Source: Deltaproteobacteria bacterium
GTDB taxonomy: Bacteria > Desulfobacterota > Syntrophia > Syntrophales > UBA2210
Assembly (NCBI GenBank): GCA_016933215.1
Contig: JAFGBH010000083.1
Span: forward strand, 1 to 40,954
DNA: 40,954 nucleotides
Direction of reading: 5' to 3'
Shown piece by piece: positions 16,225-39,188 of this stretch. A model generated the notes under the pieces. That model searched no databases and had not been told where the DNA came from. It worked only from the letters and a program-made list of their open reading frames with translations. The position numbers were made by a program, and so were the translations under genes. Position 1 is the first letter of the stretch. The number at the start of each line of letters is the position of its first letter.

Positions 16225-19200
16225 TTATTGATAACAAATCACCTTTCGTTTAACAACGTCTGCCAGTATCTTCAGATTCTCATCACTACTATCGAATACC
16301 TTCACAACATTTCGGTATTTAGCAAAATCAGGGGCATATTCTTCCAGCTGATTGGGAAACTTTTCCAACCATAAAATATTAAAGGTCACGCCTTTTTCGC
16401 CCGGGAAAATGGCTATATAAAAGATGCCTGTTTCCACAAGATCCTGGAAGAAATGGGTTCCGTAGGAGAGCTCAGGCATAAGATTGCCGTCCGAATAGGC
16501 AATTTCACCCAGTACCGAGATGTTGTTTATCTCGGAAAATCCCACGGGTACTCCGAGTGAGGGTGTTGTTGAACCCCACCTTCCCGGTCCAAGCAACATA
16601 GCATGGCATTCCTCTCTGTTTTCAATCTGTCTGTTTAATCTTCCAACGAGTCTGGCAATTTCATACTTTTCCTGAAGACTTAACTTCGTGTAATGCAGCG
16701 GATCAACATAAATAATCCTGTCAACCGATTCCAAAATTCCGCCGCCGAAAAAATTTCCTTCAAACTGGAAGAGGATATTGTCTTTCTCGATATTCTTCGG
16801 AAATTCAACCCTCTTCCCTTCCCCCTGGACTTGAAGAGGCCGGCACTGTACCAGATTGATCTTAAAATCATCCTCATCGGTAAAATTCACCGTGAATTCT
16901 ATATCAACGGGATACTCGTAGATCGTTTGAAGTTTTTTAAGCATTCTTCGCATGATGTCGGTAAACTGCGTCCCCGAGAAGAAATCATCAAAGGTAAGTA
17001 CCCACGCCTCCTGACCTTTTATTCCTAGTTCGCGTATCCTTTGATCGGTCTCGTAATCTCTGACTCCGATCCTGTCCATCCTGATGTCAAGCCCTTCACC
17101 CGACAGAGTGAGCACCGACTTTGTCTTCAGATCGTTGTGTTCGAGATCGAGCAGGTCGACATCGCGTTGAGAGAATTTTCGGGTATCTTCCATTCCCGCG
17201 TGAGGCTTCAAGAGGGGAAGATCCAATGCAACGATTCTCGGATAATCTCCCTCAACTCTGTTCACCGCTCTCGTTCCAAGTCCGAAAACCAGCCGCAGCA
17301 TACCCGCCTTCGGATCCATTTCCTTATTCCACACAAAAGTATTGTAGGAAATACCTACTCCCGCAAGATCGGGGAAATAATAATTCTTATGATGTGATCC
17401 CGAAACCCGCTGAACGAGAAGGGCCATCTGTTCATCAGCCCTTTCAAGTCCTCTCTGCATACGATAGGTCAGGGCATCCTCATTCATAGCACTCGCATAT
17501 ATTGTGCGGACGGCGTTCTCAAACTGGGCGTATCGCTCTTCGGGAGTTCCCTGATTAACGAGAAAAATGCTCTCATACTTGCCGGCAAAGGCATTTCCGA
17601 AGGAATCTTCCAAAAGGCTGCTTGATCGGACAATAATAGGTGACTGCCCGAAATATTCAAGCATCCTGTAGAACTGCTCCTTCACTTCATCGGGAAAGTG
17701 GCCCTGCTTCATTCTGTCTCTCAGGATTCGGCCTGCCTTGAAGTAGCCCTCTTTCGTCTTCTGCTCCATTCTCAATTTCCACCAGTTATTCTGTACCAGA
17801 TAGGTGTAGAAGACATCGGAACCGATATAAAAGGAGTCATGCTCTTCCAGGAGTGACTTCCAGTCGGAGTTCTTATCGAGTTCAAGAATCTTCCTGGCAA
17901 GGAGCATACCCCCTGTCTTTCCGCCAAGAAAACCGGTACCGATCAATCTCTCTCGTATCCGCAAGAGATCATCGAGAGAAAAATTATCCTTAACGAGAAT
18001 AGTCATTCTGGGTTCCCTGGTAATCATGATCCTGCATATTCGCTCGATCATGTCCTCTTCTTTTTCTGATTCCCAGGGCTTTTCGAGGAGACTTTCAGCC
18101 TCAATAAACAGTTTGTCCCAGTAGTCAAGGCTCCCCTCGCCACGTTCTTTTCTCATCTTTGACATGTCGGAAAACAATTTCGCCGCATCCACGCTGTCTA
18201 TTATAGGAACAAATGCATCCCCCTCCTTCTTGTGGGGAAGAAACATGGTGGGCGAATACCGCTTCCAGACCTTCAGTGGGTGAATATAGATATCTCCCTT
18301 ATCGTTATAGATATCGAGAAGCACCTGTGTTGTCTCACGGATTCGCGCTATCGTCTGGAAGGAGTGACTTCCCCTGATAACGGCAAAGTATGCGATGGTA
18401 TCCAATTCAAAGAGATAGGGACAGGTAATAAGAAAGAAATTTCCCACCATCAAATCGGTGGACCATTCCGAAAGTAAATTGGAAAGACAGTCAAAGACGT
18501 AATAGGCACCTAATCCCTCTTTCGTAATGATGTCGTAGACCTCGGTCGAAAAAGTCTCAAAACCGCTTGCCGGATTCAGGTGATAGGTCACTGCCTTCTG
18601 CTCAGGTTTTACGAGGGGCTCATGATCGGCAAACCTGATATAAATGAGTTTCCTGTTATCTTCGAGGGCCTTCTCGACAAAGAGCTGGACAACATATCGG
18701 TAATCATCGAGATTATCCACCTGCCAGACAACATTATCACCGGCCCTTAGGCTGTTGATAATAGCATCAAGGGATTCGTGGCCCGTACTTACGGGCTGAG
18801 AGCTTATGTAGGACTTTCTTTGAGCGCGCTCCTCCTCCCGAAGCGCAATTTGACGTTCCTCTTCCTCCTGCTGGAGAATACGGACCGCCTGTGCAATCAT
18901 CGATGCGATAATCGTGAGAAGACGGAGATCTTCCTTCAGCGAGACCGATTCATCGAAGAGCCGATCCGCACTCAGCGTCCCTATCACCTCCTGCTGGTTT
19001 CTTATGGGAACACAGATAAATGATATGTCTTTTTTGGGAAGATTTTTACGCACACCCGTTCGATCCAGAAAGAGGGGCTCATCGGAAATCTTTGGTACGA
19101 TCATAGGTCTCCCCGTCTCAACGACCCTACCGACAACACCCTCCCCTATCTTGTATTTTCCCCTTTCTTTCTGTGCCTTCGAAAGGCCGTGGCCGGCCTC

Positions 19201-19392
19201 GATAAAGATCTCCCCTGTTTGCCTGTTAAGCAGGGTAATGAAACCTCGTGACATTCCCATGTATTTATCGAGGGCCCGCAGGATGGGTATTCCAATTTTT
19301 CTGACATCCCTGCCCTCTTCCAGGACCCGACTGACCTCCCAGAGGAGTGATAATTCTTTGGTTCCCCGTATGGCGGTTGATTTCTGACCCAT
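16225..19392 (-). CDS. GAF / KaiC-like / PEP-synthase N-domain protein of unknown function
   Basis: 1055 residues in four parts. (1) GAF sensor, about 10-175, like the NifA N-terminus (LLWEVSRVLEEG), then a coiled Glu/Arg-rich linker to 195. (2) Residues 200-375 look like a KaiC/RecA fold starting GHESLDAII, but the P-loop position reads GDNVVWQVDN without GK[ST]. (3) PPDK/PEP-synthase ATP-grasp domain, about 487-855, with K492 (GGKTGG), R589 (IIVRSSS), AFAGKYES and closing QCRP. (4) Domain 860-1055 with LLGPGRWGS and GTHFFQDL. The swivelling phospho-histidine and PEP-binding barrel domains are absent. ATP binding seems retained; the phosphoryl acceptor is unknown. GGAGGGG precedes the ATG. 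First gene of the unit with the permease and HypE-like protein. Confidence 0.8.
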   Translation of the reverse strand: MGQKSTAIRGTKELSLLWEVSRVLEEGRDVRKIGIPILRALDKYMGMSRGFITLLNRQTGEIFIEAGHGLSKAQKERGKYKIGEGVVGRVVETGRPMIVPKISDEPLFLDRTGVRKNLPKKDISFICVPIRNQQEVIGTLSADRLFDESVSLKEDLRLLTIIASMIAQAVRILQQEEEERQIALREEERAQRKSYISSQPVSTGHESLDAIINSLRAGDNVVWQVDNLDDYRYVVQLFVEKALEDNRKLIYIRFADHEPLVKPEQKAVTYHLNPASGFETFSTEVYDIITKEGLGAYYVFDCLSNLLSEWSTDLMVGNFFLITCPYLFELDTIAYFAVIRGSHSFQTIARIRETTQVLLDIYNDKGDIYIHPLKVWKRYSPTMFLPHKKEGDAFVPIIDSVDAAKLFSDMSKMRKERGEGSLDYWDKLFIEAESLLEKPWESEKEEDMIERICRIMITREPRMTILVKDNFSLDDLLRIRERLIGTGFLGGKTGGMLLARKILELDKNSDWKSLLEEHDSFYIGSDVFYTYLVQNNWWKLRMEQKTKEGYFKAGRILRDRMKQGHFPDEVKEQFYRMLEYFGQSPIIVRSSSLLEDSFGNAFAGKYESIFLVNQGTPEERYAQFENAVRTIYASAMNEDALTYRMQRGLERADEQMALLVQRVSGSHHKNYYFPDLAGVGISYNTFVWNKEMDPKAGMLRLVFGLGTRAVNRVEGDYPRIVALDLPLLKPHAGMEDTRKFSQRDVDLLDLEHNDLKTKSVLTLSGEGLDIRMDRIGVRDYETDQRIRELGIKGQEAWVLTFDDFFSGTQFTDIMRRMLKKLQTIYEYPVDIEFTVNFTDEDDFKINLVQCRPLQVQGEGKRVEFPKNIEKDNILFQFEGNFFGGGILESVDRIIYVDPLHYTKLSLQEKYEIARLVGRLNRQIENREECHAMLLGPGRWGSTTPSLGVPVGFSEINNISVLGEIAYSDGNLMPELSYGTHFFQDLVETGIFYIAIFPGEKGVTFNILWLEKFPNQLEEYAPDFAKYRNVVKVFDSSDENLKILADVVKRKVICYQ

Positions 19393-19460: not shown

Positions 19461-19557
19461 GAAGCTCCCCACCCACAGGGTGGGGCTTCCCGGTAAGGAA
19501 TAGCTTCTTTATATTGCGCCCCTTGACTCCACCTATAAGGCGGGGTTTACGGGGACG
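19461..19557 (+). repeat. Palindromic repeat, family B copy 1
   Basis: GAAGCTCCCCACCC-ACA-GGGTGGGGCTTC forms a long stem (19461-19489). A weaker hairpin with CCACC-TATAA-GGCGG follows (about 19529-19543). The first part matches the copy at 32171 and shares the GAAGCTCCCC opening of family A. It lies between carB and the GAF protein gene and may end carB transcription, although no T-tract follows on the minus strand. Confidence 0.65.
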
Positions 19558-19562
19558 CCAGA

Positions 19563-22500
19563 TCAATGGTTCTTCTTGTACATCTCTTGCAACGACCGTA
19601 CAGTCAGCCCCCTGTGTCTGAGGGCATCGATGGCGTTCACCATTGCCTTCGCACCGGAAACGGTTGATACAACCGGCAGATTGTGAGCGAGTGCATCGCT
19701 TCGAATCCGTATCTCATCGCGTCTCGGTTTCGGACCGCTCGGTGTGTTTATGAGAAGTTCGACATCCCTGTTCTTGATATAATCCAGAAGATTCGGCCGC
19801 CCCTCATCAAGCCGGGGAAGCTGGGTTACGGGAACACCATTCTCCAGAAGCCTTTGTGCCGTACCTGGTGTTGACAGTATCTCAAACCCAAGATCGACAA
19901 AATTTTTGCCTATAGCAACAATTTTGCTTTTATCATAATCCTTGACACTAATAAATACCTTTCCAGAATCGGGAACTCTCTGTCCTGCCGCAATCTGGCT
20001 CTTCGCGAAGGCCACACCGAGATCGGGGTCTATGCCCATTACCTCTCCCGTGGATTTCATCTCCGGTCCGAGGAGTGTATCGGCTCCATAGAATCTCTTG
20101 AAGGGAAGAACCGATTCTTTTACCGAATAATACATCGGTTCGGGGTCCCTCTCTATACCCTGGTCTCTCAAAGACTGACCGACCATTACCTTTGTGGCTA
20201 TCTTCGCCAGAGGGATACCAGTCGCCTTCGATACGAAAGGAACGGTCCTCGACGCCCGGGGATTCACTTCAAGCACAAAGAGATCCTCGCCTTTAACGGC
20301 ATACTGTATATTGATGAGTCCCTTCACCCCCAGCTCGAGGGCCATACGACTCGTTACATCCTTTATTTCCGAGAGGATTTTCTGACTTATCGAGTAGGAG
20401 GGAATAACCATAGCGCTGTCCCCCGAATGAATCCCGGCATGTTCGATATGTTCCATAATGCCGCCGATGATCACATCCCTTCCGTCGGAAATGGCATCGA
20501 CATCCACCTCAAGAGCATCTTCGAGAAATTTGTCTATCAGTATGGGGTGATTCGGAGATGCCTCAAAGGCTTCATTCACGAATCCCCTGAGATCTTCCCG
20601 AGACCATACCACCACCATGGCCCTTCCACCGAGTACATAGGAAGGTCGAATCAGTACAGGATACCCGATTCTCTCCACTATCTTCTCGGCCTCTTCAAAG
20701 GAGAGCGCCGTGTCGTTTTCAGGCTGTTTGATATCGAGTTTTTCTGCCATTTCCTTGAAGAGTTTTCTGTCTTCGGCACGGTCAATGGCCTCCGGAGACG
20801 TTCCGAGGATTTTTACTCCCCTTCCTGCGAGCGGTATTGCCAGATTGAGCGGTGTCTGACCGCCTAATTGAACGATAACCCCTGACGGTTTTTCCTTTTC
20901 GGCAATGTTGAGGACATCTTCCAGCGTGAGGGGTTCAAAATAGAGTCTGTCTGAAATATCGTAATCGGTGGATACCGTTTCCGGATTGGAATTCACCATG
21001 ATCGTTTCATACCCTGCCTCCCGCAAGGCCATCGAGGCATGAACACAGCAGTAATCGAATTCTATGCCCTGCCCTATCCTGTTCGGACCACCTCCTATTA
21101 TCATCACCTTTTTCGATTCGCCTCCCCTGCTTTCATCCTCTTCCTCATAGGTCGAGTAATAATAGGGTGTATAGGCCTCGAATTCGGCGGCACAGGTATC
21201 GACGAGTTTATAGACCGGCGTTATCCCGTCCTTTTCTCTCATGGCCCGAATGCGGAACTCGTCCATGCCCGTTATGTCACCGATCTGCCGGTCAGAAAAT
21301 CCGAATTTCTTCGCCTTTTTCATAATATCCGGCGGGACGGTGCCTTTGCCTCTGAAGCTCCCGATCGTTCCTTCCATATCGACGATATCTTTGATATTCT
21401 GGAGGAACCACCGATCGATCCCCGAGAGCTCCGCTATCCGGTCGATGGACATGCCCTCTTCTATGGCACACCGTATGTAAAAAAGCCTCTTCTCCGTAGG
21501 ACGGGTAAAAAGCGCATCACTATATTCGCAGTCCTCTCCCCTCTTCCTCTCAAGACCATTCAAACCTGTTTCAAGCCCCCTCAGCCCTTTCTGAAGCGCC
21601 TCTTTGAATGTCCTGCCGATCGCCATTGTCTCCCCTACCGATTTCATCGATATGGTAAGGGTGTCTTCCACGCCTGGAAACTTCTCAAAGGCGAAACGGG
21701 GTATTTTAACAACGCAGTAATCGATGGTCGGTTCAAATGATGCCGGTGTCTGCTTTGTGATATCATTCGGTATCTCATCGAGGCTGTAGCCGACGGCAAG
21801 TTTTGCGGCGATCTTTGCTATGGGAAAGCCCGTTGCCTTCGATGCGAGGGCTGAGGATCTTGAAACTCGGGGATTCATTTCAATAACCACAACACGCCCC
21901 GTTTCGGGATCGACGGCAAATTGAATATTGGACCCACCCGTGGCAACTCCAATTTTTCGAATGACCGCAATGGATGCATTGCGAAGATGTTGATATTCCC
22001 TGTCGGTGAGGGTCTGGGCAGGCGCAACGGTGATAGAATCCCCCGTGTGTACCCCCATGGCATCAAAGTTTTCTATGGAACAGATAATGACCACGTTATC
22101 CCGCTGATCACGCATGACCTCCAGTTCGTATTCCTTCCATCCAAGGACAGATTCCTCAATGAGAATCTCGTTTATCATGCTCTGTTCGATTCCGTTGGCG
22201 GCGAAATCTTCAAATTCCTCGGCATTATAGGCCAGGGCACCACCGTTACCGCCGAGGGTAAAACTGGGACGGATGACAAGGGGAAAACCTATATCGACTG
22301 CGATCTCCCTTGCCTCCTCCATGGAATGGGCAACTTTGCTCCTCGGAACGTCAAGTCCGATCTCCGCCATCGCCACCCGAAATTCGTCCCTGTCTTCCGC
22401 TCTTTTGATCGCCGCAAGATCGGCACCGATCATCTCGACGTTGTATCGTTCAAATATCCCCCGCTCGGCGGCTTCGACAGCCGTATTGAGGGCGGTCTGC

Positions 22501-22775
22501 CCCCCAATGGTGGCAAGGACGGCATCGGGACGCTCCTTCTCAACTATTTTTTCGATTATGTCTGCCGTTATCGGTTCTATATAGGTACGGTCGGCCATTT
22601 CGGGATCTGTCATGATAGTGGCCGGATTTGAATTCAGGAGGACTACCTCGTACCCCTCCTCGACGAGGGCCTTGCAGGCCTGGGTACCGGAATAATCGAA
22701 TTCGCAGGCCTGTCCGATGACGATGGGCCCCGAGCCTATAATCAGAATCTTTTTTATATCAGTACGTTTGTGCAT
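19563..22775 (-). CDS. carB: Carbamoyl-phosphate synthase large subunit
   Basis: Makes carbamoyl phosphate from bicarbonate, two ATP and ammonia channelled from CarA, for pyrimidines and arginine. 1070 residues, full family length: two homologous ATP-grasp halves (start [25 protein letters not shown] split by [20 protein letters not shown] near 560) and a C-terminal MGS-like allosteric domain (about 930-1070). Typical [11 protein letters not shown] and [11 protein letters not shown] motifs are present. It is the last gene of the seven-gene operon, nine bases after guaA; oddly carA is separated from it by guaA. The ribosome site (GTGGGA) overlaps the end of guaA. Confidence 0.97.
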
Positions 22776-22784
22776 AAACGGTAA

Positions 22785-24323
22785 CTATTCCCACTCAATC
22801 GTGCTGGGCGGTTTAGAACTTATGTCATAGACGACACGATTCACGCCCCTTACCTCGTTAATGATCCTCGACGATATATTGCCCAGAACTTCATAGGGGA
22901 GTTTGACCCAGTCGGCCGTCATTGCATCGAGACTCGCCACAATCCTCAGGGCCACCACATTGGCATAAGTCCGCTCGTCACCCATCACACCTACACTCTT
23001 AACGGGGAGGAGAACGGCAAAGGACTGCCAGATATCTCCGTATCCCTCATAGGCCATCACCTCTTCCTGAACGATCACGTCGGCATCTCGAAGCACGGCA
23101 AGGGATTCTTCGGTTACCTCGCCAATGATGCGCACGGCGAGACCCGGGCCGGGAAAGGGCTGCCGCATCAGGAGACTTTCCGGTAATCCCAACTCTCTCC
23201 CAAGGACCCTCACCTCATCTTTAAATAATTCTCTGAGCGGTTCCAGGAGTTCAAAGTTGAGATCTTCGGGCAATCCTCCCACATTATGATGACTCTTGAT
23301 CGTTGAAGAGGGGCCACCATGGGCCGATTGACTTTCCACCACGTCGGGATAGAGCGTTCCCTGAGCAAGAAATCGCGCTGATTCCATATTCGCTGCCTCG
23401 TCGCTAAAGACATCGATAAAGGTCTCACCAATGATCTTTCTCTTTGTTTCGGGATCGGTCACCCCTCGCAGTGCATCGACAAACCTCGCCCTGGCATCGA
23501 CGATACGAAAGTCGAGCTTATAATCTTCGGTAAAGAGGGTGCGAATATCATCCACCTCTCCTTTCCGTAACAGACCGTTATCCACAAAGATGGCCTTCAT
23601 CTGGCTACCAATGGCACTGTTTATGCGTGCGGCGGCAACGGCGGAATCGACACCGCCCGAAAGGCCACAGATCACATTGGCCTCACCCACGGTATCCCTG
23701 ATCCTTTTCACCGATTCTTCCGCGAATCGCCCCATGGTCCAGTCGCCAGTACATCCCGCCACATGAAAGAGAAAGTTTCTAATAATTTCGACTCCTTTCG
23801 GTGTATGAACGACTTCGGGATGAAACTGAATGCCATATCTTTTTCCCCCGTCATCCACCATCGACGCAATCGGACAATCACGGGTGCTCGCCAGCACCTG
23901 AAATCCCTCGGGAACATCAGTCACATGGTCACCATGACTCATCCAGACATGGAGGGGAGATTCCATGTCTTGAAATATACCCGCCGATCTTGTGATCTCG
24001 ATAGAGGCGGGACCGTACTCTCCGCTTCTCCCCTTTTTCACCACACCTCCCTGCATCTGCGCCATGAGCTGCATCCCATAGCATATGCCGAGTATGGGAA
24101 TATCAAGTGAGAGAATTTCGCGGTCCATGGAAGGGTGATCCGGCTCAAGAACGGAGGCAGGACCTCCTGAAAGAACAATGGCGATGGGGTCGAGCTGCAA
24201 CAGCTCGTCTTCGGATATAGTATGCCTCACAATTTCACAGTAGACACCCATCTCCCTGATACGCCTGGCGATGAGCTGGGAGTACTGCGACCCGAAATCA
24301 AATACGGCTACTAATTCTTTCAC
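22785..24323 (-). CDS. guaA: GMP synthase (glutamine-hydrolysing)
   Basis: Converts XMP to GMP using glutamine. 512 residues: class I amidotransferase with catalytic C81 in GICYGMQ and histidine in QFHPEV, then the ATP-pyrophosphatase loop GLSGGVDS (about 220) and the C-terminal dimerisation domain ending RVVYDISSKPPSTIEWE. The start codon is GTG, with GAGGAG eight bases before it. It sits between carA and carB, 17 and nine bases away, so translation is closely coupled with these other glutamine-using enzymes. Confidence 0.97.
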   Translation of the reverse strand: MKELVAVFDFGSQYSQLIARRIREMGVYCEIVRHTISEDELLQLDPIAIVLSGGPASVLEPDHPSMDREILSLDIPILGICYGMQLMAQMQGGVVKKGRSGEYGPASIEITRSAGIFQDMESPLHVWMSHGDHVTDVPEGFQVLASTRDCPIASMVDDGGKRYGIQFHPEVVHTPKGVEIIRNFLFHVAGCTGDWTMGRFAEESVKRIRDTVGEANVICGLSGGVDSAVAAARINSAIGSQMKAIFVDNGLLRKGEVDDIRTLFTEDYKLDFRIVDARARFVDALRGVTDPETKRKIIGETFIDVFSDEAANMESARFLAQGTLYPDVVESQSAHGGPSSTIKSHHNVGGLPEDLNFELLEPLRELFKDEVRVLGRELGLPESLLMRQPFPGPGLAVRIIGEVTEESLAVLRDADVIVQEEVMAYEGYGDIWQSFAVLLPVKSVGVMGDERTYANVVALRIVASLDAMTADWVKLPYEVLGNISSRIINEVRGVNRVVYDISSKPPSTIEWE

Positions 24324-24340
24324 TTTTTATGCTCCTCGTC

Positions 24341-25426
24341 TTATCCCTTTCTTATCATTTCAACAAACCGCTGGAACAGATACCGGGCGTCATGGGGACC
24401 GGGACCCGCCTCGGGATGAAACTGGACGGAAAATGCCTGCAGTTCTCTATGCTCAAAGCCCTCCAGGGTATTATCATTCAGATTAGTATGGGTCATCTCT
24501 ATCGACCTTCCGTCAAGAGAATCGATATCCACGCAAAATCCGTGGTTCTGAACGGTAATATCGATCTTCCCCGTTTTCAGACACTTCACCGGCTGGTTTG
24601 ACCCGTGATGTCCGAATTTCAGCTTATAGGTCCTCCCCCCCAGAGCCAGCGCCAGGATCTGCTGACCCAGACAGATTCCAAAAATCGGAATCGTTCCCAT
24701 CTCGACGAGCCCCTTTGTAGTATCGATCGCATACTTTACCGCATCGGGGTCACCGGGACCATTCGAGAGAAGGACACCACCGGGCTCCCACTCCATAATT
24801 TCATCAAGAGAGGCATGGGCGGGAAGAACGCTCACCCTGCAGCCAACATTCCGGAGCTGATTCACAATGCTCCGTTTCACACCGAAATCCATGACAACGA
24901 CACGCGGTCCGTCCTGCCCGTTCAATTGATAGGGCTTTTCACAGGTCACACTCGAAACGAGATCCCTTCCCTCAAGCCCGGGCGATGCGCATGCCTTTCT
25001 AACGAGAGACTCGACATCGTCATCGATGGTGGATAGAACGGCCTTCATGGCACCTCGAGTTCTGATGTGTTTTGTCAGCGCACGGGTATCGATACCCTGA
25101 ATGCCAATGACACCGTTTTCTTCGAGATAGGTGGCAAGGTCCTTTTGGGATCGCCAGTTGCTGGTGATACTGCTTAATTCTCCAATGACAAATCCCTCGA
25201 GCCAGAGGGAGCGTGATTCCGAATCCTCTTCATTGATGCCGTAATTTCCGATAAGGGGATAGGTCATCGTAACGATCTGACCTTTATAGGAGGGATCCGT
25301 CAGGACCTCCTGATAGCCTGTCATTCCGGTATTGAAAACCACCTCACCATAGCCCTCCCCGGTGGCGCCGAAGGATGTTCCTTCAAAACTTCTTCCATCT
25401 TCCAATACAAGCAATGCCTTCATCAT
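24341..25426 (-). CDS. carA: Carbamoyl-phosphate synthase small subunit
   Basis: Glutaminase subunit that delivers ammonia to CarB. 361 residues: N-terminal domain with FGATGEGYGEVVFNTGMTGYQE, and a class I glutamine amidotransferase domain with the nucleophile in GICLGQQ and the histidine/glutamate in QFHPEAGPGPHD. Tandem ATGs open the gene (25426 and 25423); the upstream ribosome site is weak (CAGGT), which fits translational coupling with aspS ending 13 bases earlier. Fifth gene of the operon. Confidence 0.97.
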   Translation of the reverse strand: MMKALLVLEDGRSFEGTSFGATGEGYGEVVFNTGMTGYQEVLTDPSYKGQIVTMTYPLIGNYGINEEDSESRSLWLEGFVIGELSSITSNWRSQKDLATYLEENGVIGIQGIDTRALTKHIRTRGAMKAVLSTIDDDVESLVRKACASPGLEGRDLVSSVTCEKPYQLNGQDGPRVVVMDFGVKRSIVNQLRNVGCRVSVLPAHASLDEIMEWEPGGVLLSNGPGDPDAVKYAIDTTKGLVEMGTIPIFGICLGQQILALALGGRTYKLKFGHHGSNQPVKCLKTGKIDITVQNHGFCVDIDSLDGRSIEMTHTNLNDNTLEGFEHRELQAFSVQFHPEAGPGPHDARYLFQRFVEMIRKG

Positions 25427-25439
25427 TCAGGACCTGATC

Positions 25440-27284
25440 CTAACCAGTTATAATCTTTTTTCCGTCAACCCACTTACCACTGTCGAGATCGAGTAAACCC
25501 AGGTCGGAGAGCTGTCTGCGCGCGACAGAAGACGGTGCTTCGCTTAATGGACACCCGGCTTTTCGGTTCTTCGGGAAGGCCATGACTTCGCGAATCGATT
25601 CCGTCCCCAGTATCATGGAAATAACCCTGTCCATACCAAGGGCAATCCCCCCGTGAGGCGGAGCTCCATATTCGAGGGCCTTGAGAAAAAATCCGAATTT
25701 TTTCTTCACCTCGCTGTCGCGCAAACCGAGGGCCTGGAATATCTTCTCTTGAAGAGCCCTGTCATGAATTCTGATGCTTCCACCGCCCAGTTCCTCTCCA
25801 TTGACAACCAGATCATAGGCACGGGATTTGAGGGCCAGGAGTTCCTCTCGATCACTGGGATCGAAATCGGGTCTCTCCGGGGCGGTAAAGGGGTGATGAT
25901 TCGAGGTTATCCTTCTTCCTGTCATGGTAAAAAGCGGAAATTCGGTGATCCACAATGGACATACCCCATTTTTCGGAATTAAGTCAAGCCGCTGTGCCAG
26001 ATGCCCTCTCAATTGTGCCAGGACCGATGAAACAACCCTATAGGACCTGTCGGCAATCATTATGATGATATCACCCTCGTCGGCATCGAAACGCTTCCTG
26101 ATATTCATCTTTTCTTCTTCACTGAAAAACTGCACAATGTTGGATTCCAGGGTTCCCCCTGTAGCACGCATCCAGGTCATCCCCTTTGCCCCGAAGGAGG
26201 GAACGATCTTGCCCGCATACTCATTCTGCAGGACATTTTTGCTCAGCCTGTCCGATTGCCCCTTCACGTTGATTCCCTTTATAAAACCGCCCTTTTCAAC
26301 TATCCGGCTGAAGATGCCGTAGGTAGTGTCTTTGAAGATATCGGTGGCATCGATAAAATGGAGTCCGAAACGGGTATCGGGCCGATCCGTTCCCGTCGAA
26401 TCCATGGCCTCATTCCAGGTCATTCGGGGAAAAGGACGGGTGACGGTAATACCACCGACGGCAAACATGCGCACCACAAGTTCTTCCATGAGATCATAGA
26501 TATCTTCTTCCGCGATGAAGGATGCCTCAAGGTCAAGCTGGGTAAATTCAGGCTGTCTGTTCGGTCTCAGATCCTCATCACGAAAGCACCGTGCGATCTG
26601 GAAATACCGTTCTATGCCGCTTACCATGAGAAGCTGCTTGAAAAGCTGTGGAGACTGAGGCAGCGCGTAAAACCGTCTCGGATGGACACGGCTGGGAACG
26701 AGATAATCCCGTGCCCCTTCGGGCGTGCTCTTTGTCAGCATCGGCGTTTCCACCTCAACAAAATCATGCTCATCCAGATAATCGCGGACACATTTGATGA
26801 TGCGGTGCCTCATGACGAGGTTGTTCTGCATGGTGGGACGTCTCAGATCGAGGTAGCGGTATTGAAGTCGCGTATCTTCAGCCACCGAAAAGATACCCCC
26901 AACGGTGGCACCGGCGACCATTGCCTTTTCCGAGATAGGAAAGGGTAAAGGTTTGGAACTGCTGAGGATTTCCAGGTCAGAAGCAACAACTTCGATTGTT
27001 CCCGTCTTTATATTCGGGTTTTCCGTTCCTCTATTCCTTTTTTTTACAAACCCTCTCACTGAAATACAGAACTCACTTCTCAGCGACCGGGCATATTTAT
27101 ACGTTTTTGCAGGCGTATCTTCGGGATTGAATATTACCTGTACGATGCCGCTTCTGTCACGAAGATGAATAAAAAGTACCTCACCATGATCCCTTAAGGC
27201 ATCCACCCATCCCTTCAGATAGACTTCCTTGCCTTTATCGGAAAGACTCAGTCTCCCGCAGTTTGAACGCTTTTCGACTTTCAT
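25440..27284 (-). CDS. aspS: Aspartyl-tRNA synthetase, possibly non-discriminating
   Basis: 614-residue bacterial-type class IIb synthetase: N-terminal OB anticodon-binding domain (1-110), class II core with motif 2 FRDEDLRPNRQPEFTQLD, the GAD insertion (about 290-420), and motif 3 GIALGMDR. In the anticodon domain the loop is RDHGEV with histidine H33, as in the tRNA-Asn-charging enzyme of Pseudomonas; E. coli has leucine there. That suggests it also makes Asp-tRNA-Asn for the GatCAB amidotransferase (inference). Spacing to purF is 19 bases, to carA 13. Confidence 0.96.
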   Translation of the reverse strand: MKVEKRSNCGRLSLSDKGKEVYLKGWVDALRDHGEVLFIHLRDRSGIVQVIFNPEDTPAKTYKYARSLRSEFCISVRGFVKKRNRGTENPNIKTGTIEVVASDLEILSSSKPLPFPISEKAMVAGATVGGIFSVAEDTRLQYRYLDLRRPTMQNNLVMRHRIIKCVRDYLDEHDFVEVETPMLTKSTPEGARDYLVPSRVHPRRFYALPQSPQLFKQLLMVSGIERYFQIARCFRDEDLRPNRQPEFTQLDLEASFIAEEDIYDLMEELVVRMFAVGGITVTRPFPRMTWNEAMDSTGTDRPDTRFGLHFIDATDIFKDTTYGIFSRIVEKGGFIKGINVKGQSDRLSKNVLQNEYAGKIVPSFGAKGMTWMRATGGTLESNIVQFFSEEEKMNIRKRFDADEGDIIIMIADRSYRVVSSVLAQLRGHLAQRLDLIPKNGVCPLWITEFPLFTMTGRRITSNHHPFTAPERPDFDPSDREELLALKSRAYDLVVNGEELGGGSIRIHDRALQEKIFQALGLRDSEVKKKFGFFLKALEYGAPPHGGIALGMDRVISMILGTESIREVMAFPKNRKAGCPLSEAPSSVARRQLSDLGLLDLDSGKWVDGKKIITG

Positions 27285-32292: not shown

Positions 32293-34953
32293 ATGAACAG
32301 GTACATCGATTTCGCGATACGGCGACCGTTCACGGTATTCACTATCCTGGCACTCATCACAATCATCCTTGCTCCCGGCATGCTCAAACTGAAGATCGAC
32401 AACTCCATCGAAACACTGATGCCGAAGCATGATGATAAATACATCTTTTACAACAAGGTAAAGGACACTTACGGCGATAACGGCCAGTTTGTCATCATGT
32501 CCGTCTCCCGCAACGATCTATGGAGTGCGGAAACCATCGGAATGTTCGACGACCTCATTTCGGACATCGAAGAGTTTGAAACCTATGACGAAGAACGAGA
32601 AAGAATACGTATTCAAGGTGTGGACGCGTTTCTTTCGGAGAAAACGACCTCGCGTTCCGCAATACTCAGAGCCTTTGACAGCGATCCGGTCTTCCAAAGA
32701 ACACTAAAGCGAAAGTTCGACAAACTTTTCGGGAGCACAGGCATCCTCGACAGAGGCGACCTGAAAAAGCTCCGTAATGAGCTTCTTCACCTACAGGACC
32801 TGAAAAAGCTCGAACTGATCGACGAAATAGCCTCGCCCCTCACGATGATAGATATTACCGGCGAAGAAGACACACTGGAGGTTTATGATCTCGTCGAGGA
32901 GGATGAAACGGGGAAACGCCTCATACCGCAGACAGAAAAGGAAATTCTGCTTTTTAAAGAACGGCTTCTCAGAAACCCCGCCTTTGAGAGCGCACTGTAC
33001 ACAACCAATACCAAAACGGGTCAAATCACCGATTTCGGTGTCGTTATCAAGTTCATCAATGTGGAAGACCGCGATCCCGTCGCCCGGGAACTCATGGAGA
33101 TTATCAAGTCTCAGAAAGAGCTTAATATCGCATCGACGGGTATGCCGATCGTCTATGTCTGGGCGGTGAATTATATACGTTCCGATTTTATCGTTCTTGT
33201 TCCATTGGTCATGCTTGTAGTTATGTTCATCTTCTATCTCAACTTCCGAACCTTGAGAGGCGTCATCCTGCCCTTCCTGTCACTCAGTCTGGCAGAGTTG
33301 TGGGTTCTCGGTCTTATGGGCCATCTCGGATTTAAGATTACGGTGATGGCATCTTCGCTCCCGACACTGATGATTGCCGTGGGAAGTTCCTACTCTATCC
33401 ACATTCTGAACCAGTACTATGCAGATTTTGATATGATAACGAAGGGTGAAAAGAGAGAGAGACTAAAAGGTTCGATGGCTCATATCTCCCTGACTGTTCT
33501 CCTCGCCGGAATTACGACCTTCATTGCCTTTATGACGTTGGTCACCAGCGAACTTTCCGCCGTCAAGGAATGGGGATTATTTTGCGCCATCGGTGCGCTC
33601 TTTGCCGTTTTTACTTCCAGTTCGCTCATACCGGCAAGCCTGTCTCTTCTGCCACACTCACGCCCCGGCTCATTGTGGCGCAACAACAAATCGGCAAAGA
33701 CCACCGTCGTTGACAGAATAATTGCGATAATGACGAGAGGTGCCACCCATCATTATCGCAAGGTCGTCTTCGTCATCATCGTCATACTGGTTTTTTCTGT
33801 TGGAGGGCTCATGCAGCTCGAAGTTGACACTGCCTATGTAAGTTATTTCAAGAAGAAAAGTCCGGTCAGGCAAAACATCAACACGATCGGAGAAAAATTC
33901 GGCGGTGGATGGGGATTTGATCTCCTCATCAATTCAGGAAGTGTCGATGGTGTGAAATCGCCGGAATTTCTTAATACGCTTGAAAATATCAGGACCTGGC
34001 TCTCTGCCGAAGAGAACAGGGATCTGAAAATCGGAAGAACGGATTCCTTTTCAGATTTTATTAAAACCATGCACATGGCGATGAACAATGACAATCGATC
34101 GCTCTACACGGTTCCGAAAAACAAATCGGACATTATCGACTATCTGGAAATCTACGCCGGTGACGATGACGACTCAGACGGAAGATTTGATGAATTCGAA
34201 CCCTTTGTTGATGAGAACTACCAGACCTGCGATATTCTGACACGATTGTGCCGGAAGGAAGGACAGCCTGTCGGGACGGCCGAAGTTGCTGATATCGTCG
34301 ACAGGATGAGCACCTACCTCGAAACGAATCTGCCCGAGGGATATTCCTACACAATTTCGGGATTCCCCGTCATTGAGGTGCAGGTGTCGCAGTACCTCAT
34401 CAAGGGACAGTTGCAGAGTCTCATTTTATCCCTGATTGTGGTGGATATCATTGCCATACTCCTCTTCGGGCATATTGCCGCCGGTCTTCTGGCGCTTATT
34501 CCCATGACTGTGGCCGTTCTTATCAATTTCGGGATCATGGGATGGCTCGGAATAGCACTCGATATGCCGACCTCCGTCATCGCTGCGGTAACCATCGGCA
34601 TCGGTGTGGACGATACGATACACTTTCTCAATACATTCAGGCATAACAGGGCCAGGGGCCACAGCCTGGACGAAACCATAGCACGGACGCTTGCCGTTTC
34701 GGGAAAGGCTATTATCTTTACTTCTCTTGCCCTTATTTTCGGATTTTTCGTGTTCCTGCTCTCCAGTTTCATTCCCATCATGCTCCTCGGTTTCCTTTTG
34801 GCAGTTACTATGGTCGCAACGACGTTGGGTGCGCTCCTTGTCCTTCCCTCGGTCATCAAGGTAAGCCGGGTCAACCTTGAACAGCCGGAGAGAGAAACAT
34901 GGATGCACCGGTACCTGAATCTGGGAAAGTGGTTCGGACTGGAAGAGGAATAA
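32293..34953 (+). CDS. RND-superfamily (MMPL/COG1033) membrane protein, paralogue 1
   Basis: 886 residues with the RND layout: one N-terminal helix (about 11-31), large periplasmic loop, five helices (about 298-450), linker, helix near 490-508, second periplasmic loop, and a final five-helix block (about 710-860) with GVDDTIHFLNTFRHNRARG. Sterol-sensing-like stretch IAVGSSYSIHILNQYY lies at 361-376. The second loop contains an exact EF-hand-type loop DDDSDGRFDEFE at 625-636. Probably a proton-driven exporter of lipids or hydrophobic compounds; no substrate evident. No outer-membrane or fusion partner is adjacent. Overlapping start region GGGGAGGG. HD-domain gene follows 21 bases later. Confidence 0.85.
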   Translation: MNRYIDFAIRRPFTVFTILALITIILAPGMLKLKIDNSIETLMPKHDDKYIFYNKVKDTYGDNGQFVIMSVSRNDLWSAETIGMFDDLISDIEEFETYDEERERIRIQGVDAFLSEKTTSRSAILRAFDSDPVFQRTLKRKFDKLFGSTGILDRGDLKKLRNELLHLQDLKKLELIDEIASPLTMIDITGEEDTLEVYDLVEEDETGKRLIPQTEKEILLFKERLLRNPAFESALYTTNTKTGQITDFGVVIKFINVEDRDPVARELMEIIKSQKELNIASTGMPIVYVWAVNYIRSDFIVLVPLVMLVVMFIFYLNFRTLRGVILPFLSLSLAELWVLGLMGHLGFKITVMASSLPTLMIAVGSSYSIHILNQYYADFDMITKGEKRERLKGSMAHISLTVLLAGITTFIAFMTLVTSELSAVKEWGLFCAIGALFAVFTSSSLIPASLSLLPHSRPGSLWRNNKSAKTTVVDRIIAIMTRGATHHYRKVVFVIIVILVFSVGGLMQLEVDTAYVSYFKKKSPVRQNINTIGEKFGGGWGFDLLINSGSVDGVKSPEFLNTLENIRTWLSAEENRDLKIGRTDSFSDFIKTMHMAMNNDNRSLYTVPKNKSDIIDYLEIYAGDDDDSDGRFDEFEPFVDENYQTCDILTRLCRKEGQPVGTAEVADIVDRMSTYLETNLPEGYSYTISGFPVIEVQVSQYLIKGQLQSLILSLIVVDIIAILLFGHIAAGLLALIPMTVAVLINFGIMGWLGIALDMPTSVIAAVTIGIGVDDTIHFLNTFRHNRARGHSLDETIARTLAVSGKAIIFTSLALIFGFFVFLLSSFIPIMLLGFLLAVTMVATTLGALLVLPSVIKVSRVNLEQPERETWMHRYLNLGKWFGLEEE

Positions 34954-36524: not shown

Positions 36525-39188
36525 TCAGTCTTCCTGTTCCAATCCGAATATCCTGCCGATATTGAGATATCGTCCCAGCCAGTTTTCCGCCTCGACGGTT
36601 TTCAGATCAACTGCCGTGGCCCTAATTACCGAGGGAAGTACAATGAGAGCGCCTATCGTCGTCGCTACCATTGTCATCGCCATGAGAAGTCCGAAGAGGA
36701 TTACCGGGATAAACGAGGATATGGAGAAGACAAGAAATCCGAGGACGAGGGCAAGTGACGTGAAAAAGATCGCCTTCCCGGCGACGGCAAGTGTTCGTTC
36801 TATTGCTTCGTCTATACCAAGTCCCCGGGCCCTGTTATGCCGGAAGGTATTGAGGAAGTGAATCGTGTCGTCCACACCGATCCCAATAGTAATGGCGGCA
36901 ATCAGCGAGGTCACCATATCGAGATTTATCCCCAGCCATCCCATGACGCCGAAATTAAGGATGACGGCAACCGTCATTGGAACCAGGGCGATGGGGCCGG
37001 CCTTTAGCTGGTTGAAAAGAAGGATGACAATGATGCCGACGACAACGAGGCAGAGGAAAAGGCTCATCAGTTGACCCGTAACCACATAATGCACGAGCTT
37101 TATTTCCATCATGGGGAATCCCGTAATTGTAAAGGAAGAAGCCCCCGGCAGTTTTTTATTCAGATAGTCTGTCATTCGTCCCGCGATGTGCTTCGTTTCC
37201 GTCGTTCCCACCGAATGTCCCTTTACCTGCAGCATCCTGGCAAGTATGTTGCAGGTACTGAAATTCGAATCCACAAAGGGTTCAAACTCGTCAAATCTCC
37301 CGTCGGAATCATCATCGTCGCCGGAGTAGATTTCCAGATAGTCCACAATATCTGACCGATGTTGTGGGATTGCGTAAAAGCCCTTATCATCATTGTTCAT
37401 GGCCATGTGCATCGTCTTTATGAAATCGGAAAAGGAATCCGTCCTGCCTATGCACAAATCGCTGTTTTGCTCGGCCACAAGCCAGTTCCTGAAGTCTTCG
37501 ACCACTCCGAGAAATTGGGGGTCCTTCACACCCTCATCACGTCCCGAATCAAGAAGGATCGAGAAGCTTTCGAATCCACCGAACTTATCACTGATAATGT
37601 TTGCGTCGGTCCTCACGGAGTCATCTTCCTTCAGGTAATTAAGGAAGACCGTTTCCACCTTTAGTCTGAAAATGCCCAGTACAGAAAAGAATATCAGAAC
37701 GCCGACAATCGTAAGGACCCATTTGTAGTGAACAATCGCACCCCGTGTCGTAAGAGCAATAATCCTGTCAACAAGGGTTGTTTTCATCTTCTTGTCTTTT
37801 CCGAGAAGAGCGAACGGTATGGCATTCGGAAGGACCGCGAGTCCCGCCGGTAAGAGTGAGCAGGAAATAAAAACGGCAAACATAACACCAATGGCCGAAT
37901 AAAGTCCCCAGTCTCTGATGGCGGTGATCTCGCTGGTGGTGAGCGTCATAAATGCGATAAAGGTGGTCAATCCCGCGAGAAGAACGGTAAGAGAGATGTG
38001 GGACATGGCAAGGTGAAGCCCCGCCCTTTTATCACTTTCCGTGATTGCCTTAAAATCTGAATAATACTGGTTGAGGATATGAATAGAATAGGAACTTCCC
38101 ACGGCAATCATAAGGGGAGGGAGCGACATGTCGACCGATGTTATTTTGTGGCCCAGATATCCCATGAGACCGAGAATCCATAGCTGCGCGACACTCAGAG
38201 TCGTAAAGGGAAGCAGCACCCCCCTGAGGGATCTGAAATTGAAGTAGAAGACAATAACAACTACCAGCATGACGATCGGAACGAGCGTAAAAAGATCACT
38301 GTGCATGTAATTGTGAAAGGTTATGTTGATAACGGGAATTCCCGTAGTAATAATATCGAGACCCTTATGACTGTCGATAAGTTCCTTGATTTCTCGGGCG
38401 ATCGGGTCCTGATCAGTCACGTTCATGAACCTGACGATAATACAGAAATCTGTTATCTCTCCCGTATCTGCATCACGCGCATAGAGACCCCTTTCAAATG
38501 CTGGATTTCTCTCGAGTTTCATCCTGAACTCTTTGAACTCGTGAGCGGAAGAAGGGAGGATACGGATCCCGGCATCATCTTTTTCGATAAGATCGTATGC
38601 CTCCAGCGTATCATTTTCGCCGGTGATATCCTGCATGGTAAAAGGTGAGGCGATCTCGTCAATGATCTCGTTCTGTTTGAAATCCATTGTCTGCAGGATC
38701 TCTTTTCTCAGCTTTCTAAGGTCCCTGCTCCCCAGTTCTTCGACATCTCCGAAGAGCGCTTCCGATTTTCTTTTAAGGTATCGTGCGAAAGGAGGGTCGC
38801 TTTCAAAGTGTGCAACAAGTTTGCCGTAGCCGATTTTTCCCTGAGAAATTACCGAATCGAATTCCGAGAGGCGGGCGTTTTCCCGCTCTTTATCGAAGTC
38901 TTTGTATTCTTCCAGATCGGCAATGAGGCCGTCGATCTTTCGAAAGGTTTCTGCCCCCCAGAGGTCGTCATCGGAAACGGCCATAATGACAAACCGTCCG
39001 TTATCGCCATAGATATCTTTCACCTTTTCGTAGAAGATATACTCGTAATCGCTCTTGGGCATGAAGGCTTCTATTGCATTGTCAAACTTGAGAAGAGCCA
39101 TACCTGGTGCCAGGATAGCCGTTACAAGAAACAGGAAAATCAAAACAGCTATCGGTCTGTGCAACACGAAATCGATGTATCTGTTCAT
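36525..39188 (-). CDS. RND-superfamily (MMPL/COG1033) membrane protein, paralogue 2
   Basis: 887 residues, one more than paralogue 1 on the opposite strand. The first 640 residues align with no gap. Both share the identical stretch 581-600, the helix IAVGSSYSIHILNQYY (361-376), and the EF-hand-type loop DDDSDGRFDEFE at the same 625-636. The layout is the same: twelve helices and two periplasmic loops, with GVDDTIHFLNTFRHNRARG in the last block. The pair arose by duplication and inversion, but has diverged moderately (many 10-residue blocks half identical). AAGGTC lies upstream of the ATG. Substrate unknown. Confidence 0.85.
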   Translation of the reverse strand: MNRYIDFVLHRPIAVLIFLFLVTAILAPGMALLKFDNAIEAFMPKSDYEYIFYEKVKDIYGDNGRFVIMAVSDDDLWGAETFRKIDGLIADLEEYKDFDKERENARLSEFDSVISQGKIGYGKLVAHFESDPPFARYLKRKSEALFGDVEELGSRDLRKLRKEILQTMDFKQNEIIDEIASPFTMQDITGENDTLEAYDLIEKDDAGIRILPSSAHEFKEFRMKLERNPAFERGLYARDADTGEITDFCIIVRFMNVTDQDPIAREIKELIDSHKGLDIITTGIPVINITFHNYMHSDLFTLVPIVMLVVVIVFYFNFRSLRGVLLPFTTLSVAQLWILGLMGYLGHKITSVDMSLPPLMIAVGSSYSIHILNQYYSDFKAITESDKRAGLHLAMSHISLTVLLAGLTTFIAFMTLTTSEITAIRDWGLYSAIGVMFAVFISCSLLPAGLAVLPNAIPFALLGKDKKMKTTLVDRIIALTTRGAIVHYKWVLTIVGVLIFFSVLGIFRLKVETVFLNYLKEDDSVRTDANIISDKFGGFESFSILLDSGRDEGVKDPQFLGVVEDFRNWLVAEQNSDLCIGRTDSFSDFIKTMHMAMNNDDKGFYAIPQHRSDIVDYLEIYSGDDDDSDGRFDEFEPFVDSNFSTCNILARMLQVKGHSVGTTETKHIAGRMTDYLNKKLPGASSFTITGFPMMEIKLVHYVVTGQLMSLFLCLVVVGIIVILLFNQLKAGPIALVPMTVAVILNFGVMGWLGINLDMVTSLIAAITIGIGVDDTIHFLNTFRHNRARGLGIDEAIERTLAVAGKAIFFTSLALVLGFLVFSISSFIPVILFGLLMAMTMVATTIGALIVLPSVIRATAVDLKTVEAENWLGRYLNIGRIFGLEQED

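Follow-up and report, generated by a model that had tools for sequence, protein, structure and literature searches.

The window, a stretch of 40,954 nucleotides from a Deltaproteobacteria bacterium, contains a gene (16225..19392, minus strand) whose product might, with a probability of about 0.48, be a phosphotransferase with a regulatory role that originated from the first half of PEP synthase and acts on glutamate dehydrogenase (GDH) or another target in nitrogen assimilation. Being a single open frame without interruption, the gene encodes 1055 aa in which a GAF domain, a KaiC-like domain and a PPDK_N ATP-grasp domain are followed by a cryptic, putatively swivelling C-terminal domain (CTD). 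Open reading frame, Pfam and structure matches agree with the domain anatomy of the first-pass annotation, a NifA-like GAF sensor and a RecA-like domain ahead of the ATP domain of PEP synthase, while its assumption that a phospho-histidine domain is lacking is probably wrong.

Domain architecture of the fusion protein

Pfam matches in the protein are restricted to GAF (aa 36-170) and PPDK_N (aa 489-869). Relatives in which the domain order matches from residue ~195 through the C-terminus, at 51-68% identity, are found in the window's order, in its phylum and in genomes labelled as Omnitrophota, Planctomycetota, Spirochaetes, Elusimicrobia and others, whereby the phylum labels of some of these records may stem from binning errors.

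The ATP-grasp domain (about aa 452-854; 16831..18039, minus strand) matches the PPDK_N profile (PF01326) with 175.9 bits versus a curated cut-off of 27 (1.7e-51), and the ATP-grasp domain of rifampin phosphotransferase (RPH; 5hv6) aligns with the respective part of the model at Z 22.1, RPH and HpeI being among its top structural matches. Residues K492 (17917-17919, minus strand), R589 (17626-17628, minus strand), E832, Q849 and R851 are invariant in 75/75 relatives, as expected from the early description of an intact ATP-grasp half with K492, R589 and a QCRP motif, and are kept nearly always in a wider set with 23-69% identity. Judged by its residues, the ATP-grasp domain of the main family shows no sign of being dead. 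On the other hand, the PEP synthase equivalog TIGR01418 is matched with 46.3 bits versus 739.75, with the best stretch covering aa 523-668 only, and NCBIfam PEP synthase scores for the ATP-grasp part amount to ~6% of the cut-off. The PEP barrel is missing, as the first reading had claimed: no match to a PEP/pyruvate barrel was found in Pfam and the protein stops after the CTD. The window protein has in common with PEP synthase and PPDK the ATP-grasp domain with its catalytic residues and, in matching order, a putative swivelling domain, whereas the PEP/pyruvate barrel and the GGxTxHA motif of these enzymes are both absent.

The KaiC/RecA-fold domain (aa 195-410; 18163..18810, minus strand) aligns over 193 residues with KaiC (7s65, Z 21.6) upon structure comparison of the model, and FlaH and further KaiC-like proteins match the fold likewise, which identifies residues 200-375, initially singled out for structure prediction, as KaiC-like. 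Unlike in KaiC, there is no Walker A P-loop in the family examined: the P-loop position reads GDNVVWQV in the window protein and a Walker A motif is present in 0/75 relatives, so that the broken P-loop noticed at the outset is a trait of the family as sampled rather than of the window gene itself. All 75 sequences have D301, which occupies the Walker B position. Such a KaiC-like domain devoid of a P-loop, in an architecture rich in sensors, would suit a pseudo-enzyme, an energy sensor whose ATP-grasp domain only binds adenylates and which exerts its effect through binding; with the five ATP-site residues and the CTD histidine invariant in all 75 close relatives and degenerate motifs confined to one divergent paralog (L144_3), this alternative is, however, highly improbable.

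At the N-terminus, the NifA-type GAF domain (aa 36-170; 18883..19287, minus strand; Pfam 6e-16) has its nearest relatives in NifA and nlh1 GAF domains, as initially surmised, with the NCBIfam NifA profile matching aa 13-222 (1.4e-32) and the nlh1 GAF domain 4g3k being the solved structure closest by sequence (3.2e-25). Among the relatives compared, only members of the taxonomic family to which the window belongs carry the GAF domain; ahead of the core, the named-genome relatives inspected have at most ~77 aa of additional frame, which falls short of a GAF domain. In a tree, the fusion GAF domains group among those of NifA-like sigma-54 activators from the same family, five out of six in one clade and the sixth on a long branch set apart, and one or two captures therefore fit. 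The GAF domain is thus apparently a late addition, gained from a NifA-type sigma-54 activator. A NifA-like GAF domain ahead of a phospho-histidine relay tied to nitrogen status is otherwise known from EI-Ntr (PtsP), and this arrangement is shared by the window protein if the proposed relay is accepted. However, EI-Ntr obtains its phosphate from PEP via the barrel and has no ATP-grasp domain, whereas the window protein has kept the ATP half and misses the PEP half; the full layout of GAF followed by EI with histidine domain and PEP barrel is not found, with the EI-Ntr profile NF008283 matching the GAF part alone (17.6 bits versus 583).

The C-terminal domain as a probable phospho-histidine domain

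The CTD (aa 872-1055; 16228..16779, minus strand) spans ~185 aa, for which Pfam has no matching entry. Its two conserved motifs, GPGRWGS (aa 935-941) and GTHFFQDL (aa 978-985), were already recognised in the first-pass annotation and are conserved far beyond chance, GTHFFQDL varying slightly. AlphaFold2 models of the core (pLDDT 86.7, pTM 0.86) and of the CTD alone (pLDDT 86.8, pTM 0.87) place strands, helix, strand, strand, loop, a helix starting from T979-H980, a strand and closing strands in succession, an order which we take to agree with the swivelling domains of PPDK and PEP synthase. Upon VIA re-alignment, the rows for the CTD are mostly proteins with the swivelling beta/beta/alpha fold, several of which presumably are assigned to one SCOP fold. 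PPDK central domains (5jvn, Z 5.0, 3.5 A, 116 residues; 1vbg, 4.8; 1dik, 4.7) sit at Z 5.0-4.5 among many such rows, together with the RPH histidine domain 5fbt (Z 4.5), chaperonin apical domains, cyclase-like hydrolases, RraA and a DRTGG domain at Z 5.9; with Z values of about 5 tied with those of other swivelling-fold proteins, the fold match by itself would prove neither homology nor function. Position is informative in addition. The whole core aligns with PEP synthase (2ols, Z 23.8) over 349 residues, versus 284 for the isolated ATP-grasp domain, and with RPH (5hv3) over 374 residues; as the 2ols alignment covers model residues 259-861, 861 being the model's last, the CTD sits where PEP synthase has its phospho-histidine domain. 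Foldseek retrieved no match below E 0.1 for the CTD alone; the swivelling-fold reading is based on VIA re-alignment together with the alignment of the whole core.

Within the CTD, H980 (16453..16455, minus strand) is located at the N-terminus of a helix in the model and is the proposed phospho-acceptor. It is the sole invariant histidine among 24 diverse members (24/24) down to 23% identity, while in the 75 closer relatives H387, H518 and H980 are the only fully invariant histidines. The GPGRWG motif (aa 935-940; 16573..16590, minus strand) is as invariant as H980 across the superfamily alignment, and E963 and S976 are invariant as well. R938 of GPGRWG as a substitute for the catalytic histidine was considered and dropped, since the model puts H980 at the helix start and GPGRWG in an earlier loop.

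Sequence profiles provide a different view. Searched by HMM against PDB sequences, the CTD had chance matches only, PEP-utilizers (PF00391) yields neither a Pfam match to the CTD nor a significant hhalign profile comparison, and the T/S-x-x-G-G-x-x-x-H motif carried by known swivel domains (PMC12167813) is absent. Based on fold, position and the invariant H980 in the expected place, the CTD is nevertheless probably a diverged phospho-histidine swivelling domain hidden in residues 860-1055; with profiles silent and the swivel motif missing, the assignment is a probable rather than a demonstrated one, and it is from these features that we infer its phospho-histidine function. The same silence of the profiles, together with the lack of a significant Foldseek match and the invariant GPGRWG, E963 and S976, which a plain phosphocarrier leaves unexplained, would favour an ATP-dependent regulator without phospho-histidine chemistry. 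Its ATP-grasp domain would activate a carboxylate or directly phosphorylate a partner, with the CTD serving in its own right for binding or catalysis. As the modelled swivelling fold, the place after the ATP-grasp domain and the lone invariant histidine at a helix N-terminus all match PEP synthase, we consider this possibility unlikely, with perhaps one chance in five.

A core family with interchangeable sensors

The ATP-grasp domain and the CTD form a core which recurs with REC domains in proteins of ~1000 aa, including one paralog in the window's genome (L130), in ~770-aa forms whose N-terminus has no Pfam match, with other N-terminal extensions, and with an added C-terminal nucleotidyltransferase as recognised by Pfam (L136) or by eye (Elusimicrobia L174 and L175). 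Every core architecture has GPGRWG, and G[TS]HFF is missing from a single degenerate paralog only. Proteins with this core make up a family that has yet to be characterised, in which one sensor can replace another (KaiC-like, REC or PAS/GAF-like, or an extra nucleotidyltransferase in their stead) and whose members are listed in databases under general names.

Some members stand out. The degenerate REC-type paralog L144_3 (L144:6070-7656, G002:C188; 982 aa), in which RPSS, LSARP and GFHFF replace conserved motifs, shares its contig with a GAF-fusion gene. The nucleotidyltransferase variants (L136:7014-10229, G290:C175; L174:4941-8162; L175:1530-4730) are located directly downstream of GDH, with core and GDH genes overlapping in L174 and a second GDH-like gene (1199 aa) on the other side of the core gene in L136. 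Besides, the genomes surveyed for PEP-synthase-type loci contain many genes of ~350-400 aa whose similarity to PEP synthase is confined to the ATP-grasp half (for example, G269:C45:15166-16152) and which probably encode split dikinase subunits of the PpsB/HpeI type.

Genomic linkage to glutamate dehydrogenase

A gene-neighbour survey of homologues, as had been suggested at the outset, covered 80 whole genomes from the phylum and located a GDH gene within 5 kb of 66/88 core genes, frequently in operon arrangement, compared with a chance expectation roughly estimated at 0.5%. The proximity holds for the KaiC type (41/56), the ~770-1070 aa type (14/18) and the REC type (11/14). As a control, none of the 119 PEPS/PpsB-type genes in 47 of the same genomes was located within 5 kb of GDH; equally, a core gene was nearby in none of 18 cases of weak ELFV (leucine-dehydrogenase-like) dehydrogenases. 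GDH is present in all 80 core-bearing genomes versus 176/297 of the phylum sample (nominal P 4e-23), whereby P values of this linkage overstate independence as the genomes are related. Linkage across architectures extends to Elusimicrobia in a sample of 16 genomes, with other phyla being represented by single loci. In one genome (G332), two different core genes are each beside their own GDH, and of the directly adjacent core-GDH pairs in loci with gene models, 27/36 are on the same strand, some of them overlapping.

Among 80 named-genome loci, GDH is near the core in 36. Recurring neighbours are GltD, GltB, NrpR-like, GlnA, PII, Amt, PyrG and PurF, named by reading sequences, furthermore CarA/B and GuaA, which like GDH were named also by profiles, and NifA-like genes. 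The window's own copy is an exception to the linkage, with no GDH near it. The fusion gene comes after aspS-carA-guaA-carB on the same strand (19563..27284, minus strand), an order kept in close relatives, one of which (G011) continues with PII, Amt, NifA-like, GlnA and glutamate synthase genes; in terms of gene content, nitrogen is still the theme around the GAF-fusion copy. From the window neighbourhood alone (carA, guaA, carB, a CytX-like transporter and citrate synthase), a function could not be identified.

Two further features of the window may be mentioned. The interval separating carB from the fusion gene contains a GC-rich palindrome, GAAGCTCCCCACCC-ACA-GGGTGGGGCTTC (19461-19489), which could be a terminator or the end of a mobile element, and two MMPL/Patched-like transporters of near-equal size are found in opposite orientation (32293-34953 and 36525-39188).

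Genome linkage to GDH would fit a regulator and a metabolic partner alike. A metabolic enzyme, with ATP-grasp and phospho-histidine domain phosphorylating a small molecule of glutamate/2-oxoglutarate metabolism much as rifampin phosphotransferase or phenylphosphate synthase do with their substrates, would find a suitable pathway step in a GDH operon, and RPH and HpeI as best matches of the ATP domain, along with characterised small-molecule dikinases retaining ATP-grasp and histidine domain (PMC12167813), point in this direction. RPH, the top structural match, and the PpsAB/HpeHI/CreHI dikinases indeed resemble the core protein in combining ATP-grasp and (here putative) swivelling domain without a PEP barrel. 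They differ, however, by a substrate-binding domain for rifampin or aromatics and a canonical histidine motif, and no second substrate domain akin to the RIF-binding or PEP domain has been recognised in the core protein. With the variable sensor-type N-termini (REC, GAF, KaiC-like) and the nucleotidyltransferase of one branch suiting regulation better, a metabolic role appears rather unlikely.

Proposed mechanism and precedents

In the regulatory phosphotransferase that we favour, the ATP-grasp domain would bind ATP and phosphorylate H980 on the highly diverged swivelling domain, which no PEP barrel follows. The phospho-form, or phosphoryl transfer to a partner, would then control GDH or another target in nitrogen assimilation. 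The N-terminal module, KaiC-like, REC or PAS/GAF-like and here with the NifA-type GAF domain in addition, might sense the nitrogen or energy state, with the sensor domains gating the transfer from ATP to H980. What the analysis shows is the sequence anatomy, its conservation, the predicted fold and the genomic linkage to GDH and nitrogen genes, from which we infer that the protein uses ATP and phosphorylates H980; each catalytic and regulatory step, including which way control is exerted and by which ligands, has this inferred status. An ATP-using signalling or regulatory protein with an acceptor left open had been suggested by the first-pass annotation; this reading is supported by the conserved active-site residues and the sensors swapped around one core, although its premise of no phospho-histidine domain is probably false, and for the acceptor, linkage in the gene neighbourhood points to GDH and nitrogen assimilation as the likely target.

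A precedent is VadK (Rv1127c) of mycobacteria, a PPDK-derived kinase for which autophosphorylation on His422, binding of the methylcitrate-cycle enzymes encoded near it and tuning of flux have been reported (PMC13400623). By analogy with this published description, the core protein would be comparable in combining ATP-binding with a (here putative) histidine domain. VadK, derived from PPDK, regulates the methylcitrate cycle, whereas the core protein has sensors attached, is linked to GDH and has a histidine domain unrecognisable by sequence. In the literature searched, with subscription papers incompletely covered, neither the domain combination nor the GDH link nor the CTD as a phospho-histidine domain was found described; equally, no GDH regulator described in Desulfobacterota-type lineages, Omnitrophota, Planctomycetota, Elusimicrobia and others was encountered.

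Implications for nitrogen assimilation

GDH stands between carbon and nitrogen metabolism. Its conserved, operon-linked, sensor-bearing and presumably ATP-dependent partner, in all architectures examined, is a direct and testable candidate GDH regulator, and the occurrence of the core family beside GDH in several phyla suggests hitherto undescribed ATP-driven controllers of nitrogen assimilation. More tentatively still, these proteins might constitute a widespread class of GDH-controlling phosphotransfer systems, in which one ATP-to-histidine core, its histidine domain having escaped recognition, is equipped with lineage-specific sensors and couples nitrogen or energy signals to GDH activity. 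If true, the family would represent, after VadK, a second and apparently independent case of PEP-synthase-type machinery made into a regulator, and would harbour a phospho-histidine domain invisible to sequence searches.
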